A DNA stretch of 64,000 bases from Pedobacter psychrophilus. GTDB taxonomy: Bacteria; Bacteroidota; Bacteroidia; Sphingobacteriales; Sphingobacteriaceae. Of this stretch, positions 21,308-26,320 are shown piece after piece. The notes under the pieces are model-generated. The model did not search any database. It was not told where the DNA came from and saw only the letters and a list, made by a program, of their open reading frames with translations. The translations under genes were made by a program, and so were the position numbers. Every line of letters begins with the position of its first letter. Within the stretch, counting starts at the first letter, position 1. Location of the stretch: NCBI RefSeq assembly GCF_001652725.1, contig NZ_LWHJ01000030.1:186001-250000 (forward strand), written 5' to 3'.

Positions 21308-21664
21308 TTAATACGCTTGCACTAAAACTTCAGTAGGTATTTGTAATTGATCATGCAACTTTCTAATCATATTTAAAGAAAGCTTTCTTTTTTTATTTAA
21401 AATTTCACTAACCCTACTTTTTAGCCCAATAACTTTCACTAAATCGTTTGGAGTATAGCCCATTTGTTCCATTCTAAATTTTAAGGCTTCAATTGGGTCT
21501 GGCAAATCTATTGGGAAATTCACATCCTCATAATTTTCAATTAAGATGCTTAAAATCTCCAACTCATCACCTTCGGGAGTATTTAAATCTGCATCAAATA
21601 TGATTTCTAACCTTTCTAAAGCAGCTTTATAATCGGATTCTGATTTTATGGGTTTAATGGTCAT
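21308..21664 (-). CDS. higA: HigA-type antitoxin with helix-turn-helix
   Basis: A 118-residue protein with an acidic N-terminal part (PEGDELEILSILIENYE) typical of HigA-like antitoxins, then a helix-turn-helix of the Xre type: RMEQMGYTPNDLVKVIGLKS and RVSEILNKKRKLSLNMIRKLHDQL. It lies 5 bases after the HigB-type toxin gene on the same strand, the toxin-first order typical of higBA. It probably neutralises the toxin and represses the pair's promoter. Confidence 0.88.
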   Translation of the reverse strand: MTIKPIKSESDYKAALERLEIIFDADLNTPEGDELEILSILIENYEDVNFPIDLPDPIEALKFRMEQMGYTPNDLVKVIGLKSRVSEILNKKRKLSLNMIRKLHDQLQIPTEVLVQAY

Positions 21665-21669
21665 AATTT

Positions 21670-21963
21670 TTAAATTTTATTAGCGTCAACTTTATCATAT
21701 TCAGCATGTGTCCCTACAAATCGAATCCAAATCATAGCATACTTATAGCTTACTTTCACTATGATTCTATATTTATTTCCCTTTATGTTAAACACTACAC
21801 GATTATCTTGTAAAATGCTAGCATTAGGATAAACTATTTTAATATCAATTGGAGACTTAAATAGACTGTCGCTGATTTCTTTATACCAAGATTTTAATTG
21901 CTGCTCGCTATCAGAATGTCTTTCCCAAAATTCTCGTAAAATGCCCTTAGAAATTATCCTCAT
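21670..21963 (-). CDS. higB: HigB-type mRNA-interferase toxin
   Basis: The toxin has 97 residues from the ATG at 21963; a TTG 15 bases upstream would add only five residues. It begins MRIISKGILREFWERH, has LKSWYKEI and the conserved VFNIKGNKYRIIVKVSYK, ending WIRFVGTHAEYDKVDA, all typical of HigB toxins, which cut mRNA on the ribosome. It is the first gene of the pair with higA. Confidence 0.9.
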   Translation of the reverse strand: MRIISKGILREFWERHSDSEQQLKSWYKEISDSLFKSPIDIKIVYPNASILQDNRVVFNIKGNKYRIIVKVSYKYAMIWIRFVGTHAEYDKVDANKI

Positions 21964-22022
21964 TTTAATACTGGACAAATATAATAAAAAAGTTCCCGTA
22001 ACGGGAATTGCGTTTCTGATTT

Positions 22023-23366
22023 CTATTCTTCTAACAACCTACTATCAATTTCCTTAGTAGCTTTCGCACCTAATTTCTTTAAATTCTCTACACGGTTAAT
22101 CAAATTTCCATTGCCCAAAGTGAGTTTGCCCATCGCTTCGCCATAAACTTTTTGAGATTTATCTAAATGATCACCAACTTTTTGTAAATCAGTTACAAAG
22201 CCAACAAATTTATCATAAAGCTGACCTGCTTTGGTAGCAATATCTATGGCGTTTTTGGTTTGCTGTTCTTGTTTCCAGATGGAAGCAACGGTTTTTAAAG
22301 TTGCTAAAAGGGTAGAAGGTGTTACAATAACCACTTTTTTATTCCAGGCAAAATCAAACAAATCCTGATCATATTGTACCGCAATGGCAAAAGAAGATTC
22401 TATTGGGATAAATAAAAGCACAAATTCTGGTGAATTTATTTGATATAAATCCTGATAGTTTTTAATGCTTAAACCCATAATATGAGATTTAATAGAAGCA
22501 ATATGCTGCTTGGTAAATGTTAATCTGTCTTCCTCATTTTCTGCAGAAACCAACTTTTCATAAGCAATCAGTGATACTTTAGAATCTATAACGATATGTT
22601 TTTGCTCGGGTAAAAAAACCACCATATCTGGCAATAATCTATTCCCATCGGCAGCTACATAATTGCTTTGCTTGGTATAATTCACGCCTTCTAACAAGCC
22701 AGAACCTTCCATTAGTTTATCCAAAACCATTTCGCCCCAGTTCCCCTGTTTTTTATTGTCACCTTTTAAGGCTCTTGTTAAATTATGCGCTTCGTCGCTA
22801 ATTTGTTTGTTCAGTTCCATTAGTTTGGATAGTTCACCTTTTAAAATGTTCCGCTCATCAGATTCTGATTTGTAAACTTTCTCAACCTTATCTTCAAAAG
22901 CTTTAATGTTTTCTTTCAATGGATTTAGTAAAATATCGAGGTTGGTTCGGTTGGTTTCTGTAAACTCTGCAGTTTTTTGTTTAAGGATTTGAGCGGCAAT
23001 CAGTTCAAAATCTTTGGAGAATTTTACCTGTGTTTCGGTAATAAACTTTTCTTGTTGATGCAAACGTTGCTGTTCAGCTTTGCAAGCTTCTTCAATTTTT
23101 GAAACTTGTTGTTTTTCTTGGGTGAGCTGGGAAATTAGTTCATTTTTCTCTTCTTCTAAACGATAAATCCTATGTAAAAAGCGATTTTCATTTTCCTGTT
23201 TCTCTTCTTTTGCGCTTAAAACCTTTTGCTCTTCTACAGCTAATTCTGTTTTGAGTTGGTTATATTCCTCAATAGCAATTCCTCCTATAATTTTTGGTTT
23301 TTTTACAAATAAAATTATTGCAATAACTAAAATAATGACAGCTATAATGATTGGGAGAAATTCCAT
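22023..23366 (-). CDS. rmuC: DNA recombination protein RmuC
   Basis: The gene runs from ATG 23366 (MEFLPIIIAVIILVIAIILF, one membrane helix) and encodes 447 residues; a TTG 21 bases upstream is not needed. A long coiled coil (about residues 25-135) precedes the nuclease-like domain with KKQGNWGEMVLDKLMEGSGL, LLPDMVVFLPEQKHIVIDSKVSL and FVLLFIPIESSFA. RmuC limits DNA inversions and is related to PD-(D/E)xK nucleases. Length and order are normal. Confidence 0.93.
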   Translation of the reverse strand: MEFLPIIIAVIILVIAIILFVKKPKIIGGIAIEEYNQLKTELAVEEQKVLSAKEEKQENENRFLHRIYRLEEEKNELISQLTQEKQQVSKIEEACKAEQQRLHQQEKFITETQVKFSKDFELIAAQILKQKTAEFTETNRTNLDILLNPLKENIKAFEDKVEKVYKSESDERNILKGELSKLMELNKQISDEAHNLTRALKGDNKKQGNWGEMVLDKLMEGSGLLEGVNYTKQSNYVAADGNRLLPDMVVFLPEQKHIVIDSKVSLIAYEKLVSAENEEDRLTFTKQHIASIKSHIMGLSIKNYQDLYQINSPEFVLLFIPIESSFAIAVQYDQDLFDFAWNKKVVIVTPSTLLATLKTVASIWKQEQQTKNAIDIATKAGQLYDKFVGFVTDLQKVGDHLDKSQKVYGEAMGKLTLGNGNLINRVENLKKLGAKATKEIDSRLLEE

Positions 23367-23420
23367 TGATGTTTGGTTTAAAATCAAAAATAGGAAAATT
23401 GAGGTAAGTAATTTTGATGA

Positions 23421-23579
23421 TTTTTGTCTGAATCACGATTTTTAGGATTCAAAGATTAACAGGATGATTTGCTTACTGAAGAATTGATAAGATAAATCAA
23501 GAGTTCAATTTTCAATTAATAATCCACCAATAATCATCCAATAAATCCTAAAATCCCTTTTATCAAGATTCAGACAATT
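23421..23579. repeat. Imperfect inverted repeat, second copy of the 13781 family
   Basis: The left arm TTTTGTCTGAATCACGATTT, followed by AGGATTCAAAGATTAAC, pairs with AATCCTAAAATC...ATCAAGATTCAGACAATT. The arms match those at 13781-13942. Confidence 0.8.
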
Positions 23580-23600
23580 AAGAAGCGTGAAAACATTTAT

Positions 23601-23629
23601 AAAAAAAGCCGCTTTTCAGCAGCTTTTTT
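23601..23629 (-). terminator. Intrinsic terminator downstream of tRNA-Arg
   Basis: On the minus strand AAAAAAGCTGCT, loop GAAA and AGCGGCTTTTTT form a stem with a T run directly after the tRNA 3' end. Confidence 0.8.
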
Positions 23630-23630
23630 G

Positions 23631-23702
23631 TGGTCCCGACGAGAATCGAACTCATATCTAAAGTTTAGGAAACTTCTATTCTATCCGTTGAACTACGGGA
23701 CC
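23631..23702 (-). tRNA. tRNA-Arg (anticodon CCT)
   Basis: On the minus strand the 72-nt sequence folds as a cloverleaf: acceptor GGTCCCG/CGGGACC with discriminator A, D arm GTTC-loop-GAAT, anticodon arm GAAGT-TTCCTAA-ACTTT with anticodon CCT (reads AGG), and T arm containing GTTCGATTC. The CCA end is not fully encoded. A broken GIY-YIG gene abuts its 5' end, 2 bases away, and a partial second copy of the tRNA lies upstream of that gene. Confidence 0.93.
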
Positions 23703-23703
23703 A

Positions 23704-23952
23704 TTATTTTGGCAAAGATTTCAAAAATTCTTTGCCAATTCCACTTTTATAATATATTTCTTTTTATCTGGCTGCTTGTCTGCCAACTATAGATTCATTA
23801 TAAATTAATTTCCAGGGTCTATATCCTTTAGTGGATTTCGTTTTACCTGAATTGTGTTCTTTTAATCTTTTATCTAAGTTGGAACTAAAACCAACATAAA
23901 TTCTATTATCTTTCTCACTAATCAGGGCATAAACATAATAAACTTCTTCCAC
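23704..23952 (-). pseudogene. GIY-YIG nuclease-like gene with an internal stop codon
   Basis: Starting at a GTG at 23952, the frame encodes VYYVYALISEKDNRIYVG, a GIY-YIG core of the UvrC-intron-type class, followed by KRLKEHNSGKTKSTKGYRPW and a stop at residue 63 (TAA at 23764-23766). The frame goes on beyond with KEIYYKSGIGKEFLKSLPK, the usual end of the family, and stops at 23704. One nonsense change has thus split the gene, and the second catalytic-region helix is lost. No in-frame ATG exists upstream. The gene lies between the partial and the complete tRNA-Arg copy. Confidence 0.8.
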
Positions 23953-23955
23953 ATT

Positions 23956-24020
23956 TAAAGTTTAGGAAACTTCCCTGCCTGCCGGTAGGCAAGGTATTCT
24001 ATCCGTTGAACTACGGGACC
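23956..24020 (-). other. Partial tRNA-Arg copy interrupted by a short palindrome
   Basis: On the minus strand GGTCCCGTAGTTCAACGGAT and then AGAATA equal the first 26 bases of the tRNA-Arg gene at 23702. Next is an inserted palindrome of about 21 bases with CCTACCGGCAGG at its heart, and then GAAGTTTCCTAAACTTT, the same anticodon arm. The D arm and anticodon arm are thus present but the T arm and 3' acceptor half are missing; it cannot make a functional tRNA. Confidence 0.85.
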
Positions 24021-24095
24021 AATCTATTTGCGATTAGAGAATTTTAGATTTACGATTAATACACAAATCTAAAATAGTAAATCATTATTCTAAAA

Positions 24096-26159
24096 TCATC
24101 TAACCACACTCCCAACTCCAAATTCTTCTTTTGGAGCGACAAAAGTAAGTTTTCCATCCGAATTTTCGGCCATTAAAACCATTCCTTGTGAAATTATACC
24201 TTTAATTTCTCTTGGCGCAAGGTTTATCAAAATACTTACCTGCTGTCCAACAATCTTTTCGGGGTCAAAAAACTCTGCGATTCCTGAAACAACCGTTCTT
24301 TGGTCTAAGCCGGTATCAATCGTTAATTTCAATAGTTTTTTTGTTTTCGCAACCTTTTCTGCAGTTAAGATTTTTCCTGTTCTAATATCCAAGGCAGAAA
24401 AATCATCAAAGCTAATATCTGCTTTTGCAGGGGTTACTTCAGATTTAATTGCAGCTAAAGCTTCCGTTTTTTTATCTTCCAACTTTTTAATTTGTGCTTC
24501 CACAACTTCATCTTCTATTTTTTCAAATAATAAGGTCGCAGGGTTTAATTGATGTCCGTCTTTAAAAATAATTTCCTCATCATAACTCAAAACATCCCTC
24601 TCTATATTTAACATCCCAAAAAGCTTTTTGGAAGAATAAGGTAAAAAAGCTTGAGACAAAGTTGCTAAATGGGCAATGATGTGCAAACAGTTTTGCAAAA
24701 CTTCTCTGGCTTCTTCAGGACTTTCCTTAAAAGTTTTCCAAGGCTCATTTTCTGTTAAATACCTGTTTCCTAAACGGGCAATATCCATCACGCTAGCAAT
24801 AGCGTTTCTAAATTTAAAATCACCTAAATAAATATCAACATCATCATAAGCTTTCCCAATTTCATCAAATAAAGATTGGTTTTTTATTTTTTCTCCACCT
24901 AAAACTTTCCCTTCAAAGTATTTGTGCATCAAAATCATTACCCTATTCACAAAATTCCCTAAAATGGCCACCAACTCATTATTCACCCTCGCTTGGTAAT
25001 CTTTCCAGGTAAACTCGCTATCACTGGTTTCGGGCATAATAGAAGTTAAAACATAACGCAATTCGTCTTGCTTGTTAGGAAATTCTTCTAAATATTCATG
25101 CAACCAAACGGCGTGATTTCTTGAGGTAGAAAGTTTATCGCCTTCTAAATTCAAAAACTCATTTGCAGGTACTTGGGTTGGCAAAATATAATCGCCGTGG
25201 GCATGTAAAATAGAAGGAAAAGTAATACAATGAAAAACAATATTATCCTTACCTATAAAATGTATCAGACAAGAATTATCGGCTTCATTTGGTTGTTCTT
25301 TCCAATATAATTGCCAGTCTTTATTATGATCAATTGCCCATTGTTTGGTAGCAGAAATATAGCCGATTGGTGCATCCATCCACACATAAAGCTTCTTACC
25401 TTCCGCTTCTTGCAAAGGCACATCAATTCCCCAATCTAAATCACGCGTCATGGATCGAGGCTGTAAACCTTGCTTTAACCAGGAACTACATTGGCCATAA
25501 ACATTTGTTTTCCAAATATCTTTTTTGCCTTCTAACAGCCATTTTTCTAGCCAAGGCTGATATTTATCCAATGGCAAATACCAATGTTTGGTAGGTTTTA
25601 AAATTGGAGCGTTTCCGCTTAAAGTAGATCGTGGATTGATTAAATCTGTCGGACTAAGCGAAGTGCCACATTTTTCGCATTGATCGCCGTAAGCGTTATC
25701 ATTACCGCAATTAGGACAAGTCCCAATGATGTATCTATCCGCTAAAAACTGTTGATATTCCTCATCAAAATATTGATCAGAAAATTTTTCTATAAATTCT
25801 CCTTTTTCATAAAGATTCAAGAAAAATTCTTGCGAAAGATCATGATGAATGGCAGAAGAAGTACGGTGATAAATATCAAAAGCAATCCCAAAATCCTCAA
25901 AACTTTGTTTTATTTGATGATGGTATTGATCAATAATTGCTTGAGGAGTAGTGCCTTCCTTCTTCGCTTTTATAGTAATTGCCGCTCCATGTTCGTCAGA
26001 ACCACAAACGTAAACCACATCTTTTTTTTGTAAGCGCAAATGCCTCACAAAAATATCCGCAGGCAAATAAGCACCAGCCAAATGCCCAATATGTAAAGGT
26101 CCGTTTGCGTAAGGCAAAGCAGAAGTAATGGTATATCTCTTAAAATCTTTTTGAGTCAA
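24096..26159 (-). CDS. metG: Methionine-tRNA ligase
   Basis: MetG charges initiator and elongator methionine tRNAs. The class I signature HIGH lies in ANGPLHIGHLAG; a zinc knuckle is CPNCGNDNAYGDQCEKCG, the KMSKS-type loop is GDKLSTSRN, and a C-terminal tRNA-binding OB domain (DIRTGKILTAEKV) completes the protein at about 687 residues. The start chosen is the TTG at 26159 (reading TQKDFKRYTITSALPYANG after the initiating Met), because a -7 promoter box lies just upstream. A longer frame to a GTG at 26258 would run through that promoter and part of a repeat. Confidence 0.93.
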   Translation of the reverse strand: MTQKDFKRYTITSALPYANGPLHIGHLAGAYLPADIFVRHLRLQKKDVVYVCGSDEHGAAITIKAKKEGTTPQAIIDQYHHQIKQSFEDFGIAFDIYHRTSSAIHHDLSQEFFLNLYEKGEFIEKFSDQYFDEEYQQFLADRYIIGTCPNCGNDNAYGDQCEKCGTSLSPTDLINPRSTLSGNAPILKPTKHWYLPLDKYQPWLEKWLLEGKKDIWKTNVYGQCSSWLKQGLQPRSMTRDLDWGIDVPLQEAEGKKLYVWMDAPIGYISATKQWAIDHNKDWQLYWKEQPNEADNSCLIHFIGKDNIVFHCITFPSILHAHGDYILPTQVPANEFLNLEGDKLSTSRNHAVWLHEYLEEFPNKQDELRYVLTSIMPETSDSEFTWKDYQARVNNELVAILGNFVNRVMILMHKYFEGKVLGGEKIKNQSLFDEIGKAYDDVDIYLGDFKFRNAIASVMDIARLGNRYLTENEPWKTFKESPEEAREVLQNCLHIIAHLATLSQAFLPYSSKKLFGMLNIERDVLSYDEEIIFKDGHQLNPATLLFEKIEDEVVEAQIKKLEDKKTEALAAIKSEVTPAKADISFDDFSALDIRTGKILTAEKVAKTKKLLKLTIDTGLDQRTVVSGIAEFFDPEKIVGQQVSILINLAPREIKGIISQGMVLMAENSDGKLTFVAPKEEFGVGSVVR

Positions 26160-26189
26160 AACAGAAATTGTGTTTGTTTTATTAATTTG

Positions 26190-26197
26190 CAAAGATA
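26190..26197 (-). promoter_or_regulatory. -7 box of the metG promoter
   Basis: On the minus strand TATCTTTG matches TAnnTTTG and sits about 31 bases before the TTG start of metG, which supports that start codon. Confidence 0.55.
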
Positions 26198-26245
26198 ATT
26201 GATATTGATTAAATAAAATTATTAAAGAAAAAGATAAATAATTTG

Positions 26246-26320
26246 TGCGTTTTAACACGCTATCCGCTCATACTACACAGGCATTAGCCACAAGCCGGTA
26301 TCCGCTGCTATCGTTAACGC
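26246..26320. repeat. Dispersed intergenic repeat, variant copy 3
   Basis: It begins GTGCGTTTTAACACGCTATC and ends CTATCGTTAACGC. The middle (CATACTACACAGGC, CCACAAGCC) also occurs, reversed, in the copy at 48654. It shares the ends GCGTTTT and ATCGTTAACGC with the other copies but lacks the CCGCCAGCTGGCGG palindrome. Confidence 0.7.

Follow-up and report, generated by a model that had tools for sequence, protein, structure and literature searches.

The locus in the Pedobacter psychrophilus genome

The stretch of DNA analysed here (64,000 nucleotides of Pedobacter psychrophilus, contig NZ_LWHJ01000030.1, positions 186,001 to 250,000; hereafter 'the window', to which all coordinates refer) carries, in minus-strand order, metG, a pseudo-tRNA-Arg with a palindrome, a GIY-YIG open reading frame, a single base, an intact tRNA-Arg(CCT) and rmuC:

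24096..26258, minus strand: metG, upstream neighbour and landmark for the same site in relatives
23995..24020, minus strand: pseudo-tRNA-Arg, 5' part, identical to tRNA positions 1-26
23974..23994, minus strand: 21-nt near-palindrome of the CCTGCC class, between tRNA positions 26 and 27; class shared with sister elements
23956..23973, minus strand: pseudo-tRNA-Arg, anticodon-arm part, identical to tRNA positions 27-44
23704..23952, minus strand: GIY-YIG nuclease gene, single domain, GTG start, one in-frame TAA after 62 codons
23630..23702, minus strand: intact tRNA-Arg(CCT) (ARAGORN; Rfam tRNA, 64.7 bits)
23601..23630, minus strand: terminator-like hairpin and T-run behind the tRNA, judged by eye
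22023..23387, minus strand: rmuC, downstream neighbour beyond the intact tRNA-Arg(CCT)

The gene at 24096..26258 is one that we take, from its sequence alone, to be metG. Pfam PF01541 matches the first 62 residues of the nuclease (E 4.1e-14), and the protein is 73% identical to that of an open gene in another genome of the genus (G014). The near-palindrome, CCTTGCCTACCGGCAGGCAGG, is imperfect, and it interrupts the tRNA sequence between positions 26 and 27 without loss of any base. The 26-mer of the tRNA is present as two exact copies in the window, against a mean of 0.00 in shuffled sequence, and the palindrome core (16 nt, up to two mismatches) occurs at only one place in the 4.0 Mb genome when both strands are scanned; the arrangement is thus not attributable to chance. 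The intact gene in the window is the only CCT copy of tRNA-Arg matched in this genome, another tRNA-Arg elsewhere having 77% identity. The window copy of the element is decayed and is probably dead. A HigBA-type toxin-antitoxin pair lies close by (21308-21978, minus strand; HigB_toxin PF09907 and an HTH protein).

The original prediction had placed a partial tRNA-Arg, a GIY-YIG gene and an intact tRNA-Arg in succession on the minus strand, with the nuclease broken by one stop codon: coordinates, ARAGORN and Pfam bear out the succession, and the in-frame TAA bears out the break. Its distance of 2 bases between the nuclease stop and the intact tRNA was wrong in detail, being 1 base. Its suggestion that a palindrome stands in place of normal joining held only in part: the palindrome is present, yet as a pure insertion and not as a joining scar specific to this locus, and palindromes recur in the pseudo-tRNAs of most elements where inspection was possible. 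Elsewhere the order intact tRNA - GIY - pseudo-tRNA is common, and the window shows its mirror image.

Other copies in the same genome

The GIY-YIG protein of the window has eight matches in its own genome, four of which form two tandem pairs, at tRNA-Met and at tRNA-Asn. Each gene of these pairs is followed, by eye, by a partial copy of that tRNA bearing a palindrome and then by a copy of the terminator. Both Asn units have a perfect 7-bp stem, TCCCGACCCGTCGGGA replacing 10 nt of the tRNA, as has the second Met unit, in which TCCGCCAGTTGGCGGA replaces 10 nt; the first Met unit has a degenerate palindrome, with a second palindrome further 3'. In the second Asn unit the nuclease has an in-frame stop, and in the tRNA-Met units the stop codon of the nuclease falls inside the D-loop of the pseudo-tRNA. 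Two further matches (L006 and L007) lie away from tRNAs, and L008 is a weak match within a long frame.

TCCCGA-class palindromes occur at nine places in this genome, two of them in pseudo-tRNA-Asn, and the Arg palindrome at one, ruling out an abundant genomic repeat; free transposition of the palindrome is not evident, since the TCCCGA class is so infrequent elsewhere. Three TCCCGA-class palindromes (L141, L143, L147) lie in sequence that by eye resembles other repeats and not tRNA copies.

Recurrence at tRNA genes across Bacteroidota

In a first survey, 43 of 60 relatives had a match to the Met-type protein at E 1e-4; outside its own genome there were 119 matches in 105 clusters, the first 100 of which were taken as loci. 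By ARAGORN, 47 of the 100 have a tRNA or, in one case, a tmRNA within 500 bp, and the nearest tRNA within that distance lay on the same strand at 45 of 46 loci and at 68 of 68 in a further set. With a library of 80 tRNAs drawn from the surveyed loci, same-strand tRNA sequence was found within 350 bp of 68 of 114 GIY-YIG genes (56 of 100 loci); control windows at a distance of about 1.4 kb gave 7 of 114, and the opposite strand 5 of 114. The distant windows reached at least 200 bases for 102 of 114 genes upstream and 105 downstream, and genes within tandem arrays are not independent in these counts. No tRNA sequence lay near the other 44 loci, and Rfam returned only two unrelated matches for 40 of the loci without an ARAGORN tRNA. 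The isotype labels were Met, Arg, Val, Leu, Ala, Asn, Asp, Ser, Pro, Thr and Phe.

An out-of-sample scan of GTDB species genomes with an alignment of nine valine-type proteins confirmed 485 relatives, and the best 80 were kept, selected by protein alone. Near windows held tRNA sequence at 78 of these 80 loci (best match tRNA-Val(TAC) in 72, Asn in 4, Pro in 1, Ala in 1); controls gave 2 of 80 upstream, none of 80 downstream and none of 80 on the opposite strand, with at least 200 bases available in 65 upstream and 72 downstream windows. An intact tRNA-Val(TAC) was the nearest ARAGORN tRNA within 500 bp in 49 of the 80. At least three of the loci come from genomes that were also in the first survey (G004, G008, G022). 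The 80 span Pedobacter, Mucilaginibacter, Sphingobacterium, Chitinophagaceae, Bacteroidales, Flavobacteriales, Echinicola and others; two, labelled Bifidobacterium and Kuenenia, are from metagenome bins whose contigs are possibly misplaced.

A search for the window's own lineage found matches at E 1e-12 in 92 of the 395 genomes of the class. The best 30 loci, four of which were already in the first set, had a tRNA within 500 bp in 25 cases and within 740 bp in 27, always on the same strand, and matched the library in 23 cases against none of 30 controls. Chance adjacency of GIY-YIG and tRNA genes is ruled out by the control windows of all three surveys.

Several individual loci merit description. 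At ssrA in G043 (L083, 1507-2426) a GIY-YIG gene stands directly behind the tmRNA, and the tmRNA 3' end with its flank is copied on the far side; blastn found no tmRNA piece in two relatives of this locus (L066, L073). A three-unit array of tRNA-Val-type GIY genes in G008 (L046) has, by eye, no intact tRNA nearby; an island may have split it from its tRNA, since the upstream sequence resembles, again by eye, the end of an integrase gene. Upstream of a tRNA-Ala in G035 (L101, about 1502-1872) lie four short units at 112-bp spacing, made of tRNA pieces and palindromes without a nuclease gene, and hence passive. ARAGORN also makes odd calls (Stop, Ile-TAT, Lys, Gln, Tyr) on pseudo-tRNAs with a palindromic anticodon arm (L051, L190, L198, L206, L215, L217, L250).

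Pseudo-tRNAs and their palindromes

An alignable pseudo-tRNA stands behind the gene in 65 of the 80 valine-type loci (nine others scored too low and six were too short), and 60 of these 65 contain a perfect inverted repeat with a stem of at least 6. Such a repeat is also present in 41 of the 80 intact library tRNAs of all isotypes, although in none of the nine tRNA-Val, because the arms of a tRNA themselves pair; the telling count is therefore the position of the repeat. Its first base falls on tRNA position 28 in 47 of the 65 copies, and on 28-29 in 51 of them, so that it takes the place of the anticodon arm; it mostly reads T(C/T)CCG...CGG(G/A)A. The stem varies on both sides, stem position 7 being T-A in 21 and C-G in 20 of the 47 loci with both anchors; these counts lean towards pairing, as stem ends were shifted by up to 2 bases to the best pairing. 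Around the palindrome the acceptor stem has decayed (212 of 396 pairs, 54%, versus 276 of 298, 93%, in intact copies), the D stem less so (170 of 222 versus 163 of 175) and the T stem little (243 of 274 versus 220 of 230).

The palindromes in 11 aligned loci of the Arg/Leu/Ser/Ala group mostly add about 19-40 nt without replacing any tRNA sequence, in the D-arm or between positions 26 and 27, sometimes with two or more per copy; one locus (L277) aligned poorly.

When palindrome class is mapped on the nuclease tree, the four classes need six changes, compared with a mean of 11.2 when classes are shuffled within isotype, only 1 of 1000 shuffles being as low. The test classed 78 of 108 rows, left 30 of 108 unclassified, and used every sixth of the 80 Val loci. 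A single isotype can host more than one class: tRNA-Arg(CCT) has six CCTGCC and five CCCGCCCG loci, tRNA-Ala six TCCCG and two CCCGCCCG, tRNA-Leu(TAA) three TCCCG and one CCTGCC, and tRNA-Val 27 TCCCG and one TCCGCC. Palindrome class thus tracks nuclease lineage even within one isotype, a result obtained from sequence alone, which marks the palindrome as a part of the element rather than of the tRNA or the host. The correlation requires no more than that gene and palindrome are inherited together.

Isotype fidelity of nuclease lineages

The 17 tRNA labels together with 'none' can be placed on a tree of 119 GIY rows with 25 changes; the minimum is 17 and the shuffled mean 67.6, and none of 200 shuffles was as low. 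Among tRNA-type rows alone, isotype needs 20 changes and genome labels need 52. Five labels were assigned manually, being taken from the nearest tRNA or a tandem neighbour or entered as none, and many forks remain open because the alignment has only 94 columns. Starred clades are those of Val, with 20 rows of which one is labelled Arg; of Met and Leu-TAA, with 7 and 5 rows respectively and a single unlabelled row in each; an Arg-CCT clade of 5 rows; and Arg-ACG, with 2 rows. At tRNA-Arg(CCT) there are at least two separate GIY clades, one including the window gene, and the exceptions to the isotype lock are Asp and Pro labels, scattered over the tree. On this sequence evidence, GIY-YIG lineages track tRNA isotypes.

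Empty sites, occupied sites and arrays

Within the genus, 15 of 18 genomes have tRNA-Arg(CCT), with metG adjacent in 14 (in G012 the contig ends first). Seven of these sites are occupied by a tRNA-type GIY-YIG gene (G000, G001, G002, G004, G012, G014, G015) and eight are not (G003, G005, G007, G008, G009, G011, G013, G016). In G005 a 3' remnant with a palindrome persists at the site; in G009 and G011 the opposite strand carries, 339 and 619 bp from the tRNA respectively, a GIY-YIG gene that belongs to a non-tRNA clade. The empty site of G013 and the occupied site of G014 have common flanks, and by eye their intact tRNAs are identical; in G014 the intact tRNA and about 41 bp of flank are followed by the gene, the pseudo-tRNA and then the same flank again, with a 5' module of four palindromes upstream. 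Two GIY clades with two palindrome classes are found at this same metG-linked tRNA-Arg within the one genus.

The tRNA-Val site is empty in G009, holds one short unit without a gene in G013, and in G014 carries eight genes, seven at 358-bp spacing and one past a longer gap. The longest array noted behind tRNA-Met(CAT), in G142, has ten same-strand genes at 457-bp spacing, with pseudo-tRNA pieces at the two junctions inspected. At 33 Val loci the flanks behind the intact tRNA and behind the pseudo-tRNA are nearly identical (at least 0.96) in 8 and clearly different (below 0.5) in 7; median similarity is 0.72 within a locus and 0.49 between loci, and the best match is the locus' own flank in 17 of 33. 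No excised form or transfer vehicle of the cassette was seen.

The nuclease

Across the small GIY-YIG proteins the Tyr, Gly, Arg, His and Glu columns are invariant or nearly so, and we take these to correspond to the catalytic residues of I-TevI. Pfam assigns PF01541, with a borderline T5orf172 match for the window protein; NCBIfam gives only matches below cut-off, including a group I intron endonuclease model, and one of three PHROGs matches is a homing-endonuclease family (4e-5). The nearest solved structures by sequence are UPF0213 (1ywl, E 1.5e-13; 1zg2, E 4.9e-13), followed by five SLX1 sequences (E 1.9e-5 to 9.6e-4). SLX1 is a structure-specific nuclease, and SLX1-SLX4 cuts branched DNA (PMC7017083). 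The AlphaFold model of one valine-type protein (pLDDT 92) is a single compact 80-residue domain whose nearest folds by Foldseek are UPF0213 and the I-TevI catalytic domain (best 1zg2 at E 4.9e-3, none reaching 0.001). There is also weak similarity to the GIY-YIG part of PADLOC candidates.

Valine-type genes are open over 66 codons in 79 of 80 cases, with a median dN/dS of 0.26 and a maximum of 0.50 (43 pairs with dS below 1.5), so that the nuclease of this type is, as far as sequence can tell, under purifying selection. The valine-type protein had no match in 72,556 plasmid and 50,697 phage records and none confirmed in IMG/VR; the Arg-type protein had none in the same 50,697 phage records, the only set scanned for it; and the Met-type protein had two IMG/VR matches of 27 residues. 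Phage or plasmid cargo is accordingly rejected for the valine type on all three scans, and for the Arg type on phages only.

Small GIY-YIG genes between repeats

The flanks upstream and downstream of the gene match each other in 51 of 64 tRNA-type genes (50 as direct repeats), where distant control windows give 2 of 56; for the remaining small GIY genes the figures are 32 of 46 (28 direct) and, in the controls, 1 of 39. The four non-tRNA GIY genes inspected have GC-rich repeated motifs in their flanks, and one motif-family pattern is present on both sides in 4 of 46. Since non-tRNA GIY genes also sit between repeats, tRNA - GIY - pseudo-tRNA looks like one case of a more general X - GIY - X'. 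Non-tRNA GIY-YIG genes lying between GC-rich motifs, for example TCATTGCGA...AAGCAATCT or GTCACCCTGAGCGGAGTCGAAGG, include L006 of the window's own genome, L075, L123, L125 and L129.

How the cassette may move

The original prediction named one finding that would refute it, namely that related GIY-YIG genes never lie near tRNAs, and this is not the case: same-strand tRNA sequence lies within 350 bp at 56/100, 78/80 and 23/30 loci. It called for a search for occupied and empty tRNA sites, both of which exist within the genus. Its proposal of a homing-like insertion at a tRNA that leaves a complete copy is supported, without cutting of the tRNA gene, and thus true homing, having been shown; the small, possibly undescribed tRNA-targeting element that it suggested is likewise supported, and the phenomenon is larger than was supposed.

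Recurrence, same-strand placement, the pseudo-tRNA with its palindrome, empty and occupied sites, and tandem arrays are established by sequence. The reading that in our view best accommodates them, with a probability of roughly 0.5, is a chromosomal selfish cassette moved by nuclease breaks that are repaired through tRNA homology, in which cutting, target, expression and recombination-driven movement are all inferred. The cassette would consist of a single-domain GIY-YIG gene and a palindrome-bearing pseudo-tRNA, beside an intact tRNA on the same strand. The nuclease would break hairpin- or cruciform-forming DNA at palindromes of its own class; the tRNA-derived arms flanking the break would serve as an address, directing the ends to recombine with the cognate tRNA gene, either within the same array, which would grow, or with DNA reaching a new cell. 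Repair would keep one intact tRNA, leaving the nuclease and the palindrome-bearing pseudo-tRNA beside it, and the host would survive because an intact tRNA is retained. A break in the palindrome is preferred here because the palindrome stays palindromic, follows the nuclease and can multiply within the pseudo-tRNA, and because the protein consists of a nuclease domain alone and resembles structure-specific enzymes. Against this reading, there is no biochemical evidence of cutting, and the palindrome is imperfect in the window, degenerate in the first tRNA-Met unit and unclassified in 30 of 108 rows.

A possible alternative is homing of the usual kind, and both main readings invoke a nuclease break repaired via tRNA homology with an intact tRNA retained; they differ in the site of the break, and neither has been shown. 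Here the nuclease would cut the intact tRNA of empty alleles near the spot where the pseudo-tRNA has its palindrome; the left end would copy the donor's intact tRNA and the right end would anneal to the pseudo-tRNA, yielding tRNA - donor flank - GIY - pseudo-tRNA - host flank, and the palindrome would be a mere scar that protects the pseudo-tRNA. In its favour are the isotype lock, the replacement of the isotype-specific anticodon arm by the Val palindrome, the Val flanks (7/33 clearly different and 8/33 nearly identical, as expected for transfer plus local array growth) and the precedent of SegB, a GIY-YIG enzyme that cuts inside tRNA genes and drives tRNA arrays. However, the intact tRNA is, by eye, identical in occupied G014 and empty G013, so that under homing the occupied site would remain open to cutting. 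Changes in the stem come in pairs and palindromes repeat within one pseudo-tRNA, neither of which a scar needs; the protein has no domain beyond the nuclease fold for sequence recognition (in one model); and the palindrome of the Arg/Leu group lies mostly in the D-arm and not in the anticodon arm.

Less likely is a host-serving system, in which pseudo-tRNAs act as RNA (a decoy, a regulator or a processing signal of tRNA operons) and the nuclease is kept for that purpose, for example against tRNA-cutting toxins. Same-strand placement (68/68 and 45/46 loci), the largely kept D and T arms of pseudo-tRNA-Val, purifying selection on the nuclease and its weak similarity to PADLOC candidates would fit; patchiness within the genus (7 occupied versus 8 empty), tandem arrays, insertions in the D-arm and T-arm, the dead copy in the window and related nucleases between non-tRNA repeats do not. 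Absence of mobility, with small GIY-YIG genes persisting by vertical descent at duplication-prone tRNA loci, is favoured by the fact that tRNA genes are common sites of duplication and integration and by the isotype lock that vertical inheritance also predicts, but is very improbable given the patchy presence in one genus, the two GIY clades and two palindrome classes at the same metG-linked tRNA-Arg, and the few matches in control windows.

Beyond the preferred reading of a selfish cassette at tRNA genes lies a bolder one, which we hold with less conviction and would narrowly bet against: small GIY-YIG genes with class-specific palindromes may form an unrecognised mobile system of Bacteroidota of the form X - GIY - X', playing the part of RAYT/REP with a different nuclease fold. 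In one branch X would be a non-tRNA repeat, with dispersal presumed; in the other X would be a tRNA or tmRNA gene whose pseudo-copies provide the homology address, with one isotype per lineage across the phylum.

If these inferences are correct, the bacterial genes under the tightest constraint harbour a phylum-wide family of selfish nucleases that converts tRNA loci into pseudo-tRNA arrays. Lineages locked to isotypes, sites with and without the element in one genus, and live and dead copies would then offer material for asking how a minimal nuclease settles at one tRNA gene, why palindromes persist and whether GIY-YIG enzymes mobilise repeats as RAYTs do. One must also consider the hazard to annotation, ARAGORN naming some pseudo-tRNAs 'tRNA-Stop', 'tRNA-Ile(tat)', 'tRNA-Lys' and others.

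Comparison with known systems

Searches of the open-licence PMC literature (subscription papers and preprints lay outside it) returned no description of a tRNA-nested GIY-YIG gene with palindrome-bearing pseudo-tRNAs in bacterial chromosomes. The small, putatively selfish element at many tRNA genes across Bacteroidota, inferred from sequence alone, appears to be undescribed. The nuclease itself has a known fold, its UPF0213/SLX1-like GIY-YIG character being confirmed by both sequence and fold similarity. A group I intron is excluded, as no intron family matched 23500-24200 at E up to 5 and the tRNA is intact; so is a tRNA island of a tyrosine recombinase, for in the window the GIY open reading frame stands alone between tRNA and fragment on that strand, without an integrase.

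Several systems share parts of the arrangement. RAYT genes are flanked by linked palindromes, and RAYTs are HUH tyrosine enzymes. The cassettes resemble REP/RAYT (PMC3116915, PMC2817692) in their short passive units and in the combination of nuclease gene and linked palindromes, but differ in having a GIY-YIG nuclease and palindromes inside tRNA copies; REP/RAYT proper is ruled out, as the protein is not an HUH (Y1) transposase and the palindromes are not high-copy in their own genome. Mitochondrial mobile ORFs (Allomyces atp6, Rhizophagus) duplicate the 3' end of the gene they enter, and are alike in that insertion leaves a complete host gene and a displaced fragment; they enter protein genes, and to our knowledge neither tRNA nor palindromes are involved there. 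Rickettsia palindromic elements are, as in the cassettes, short palindromes inside genes, but unlike the cassettes are not known to have a linked nuclease gene or a tie to tRNA duplicates. The tyrT repeats of E. coli (rtT), which follow a tRNA in tandem and each contain part of the tRNA-Tyr 3' end, are similar in this respect, but they are not known to have a nuclease gene or a palindrome insertion.

Set against homing endonucleases, the cassette has the GIY-YIG catalytic domain and a gene present in some alleles and absent from others. Free-standing GIY-YIG homing endonucleases typically have a separate DNA-recognition region; no such region stands beside the nuclease domain in the 80-residue single-domain model of one valine-type protein. 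In the occupied allele it is the pseudo-tRNA that is interrupted, yet the intact tRNA is the same in G013 and G014. The closest precedent is SegB of phages T4 and T6, a free-standing GIY-YIG homing endonuclease that cuts within tRNA genes and amplifies tRNA together with segB (PMC13096335; PMC2988022). Breaks in tRNA genes are a feature of SegB and for the cassettes are only proposed; SegB is borne by phages, whereas the cassettes are chromosomal and encode about 80 residues without an extra domain. No palindrome-bearing pseudo-tRNA is described for SegB in the relevant passages of PMC13096335 and PMC2988022, whereas the cassettes have one, and no favoured isotypes are reported for SegB (PMC13096335; PMC2988022), whereas cassette lineages are locked to theirs. 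What the two have in common is a GIY-YIG gene beside tRNA genes, tandem amplification of tRNA and nuclease, and a reach that extends over many isotypes.
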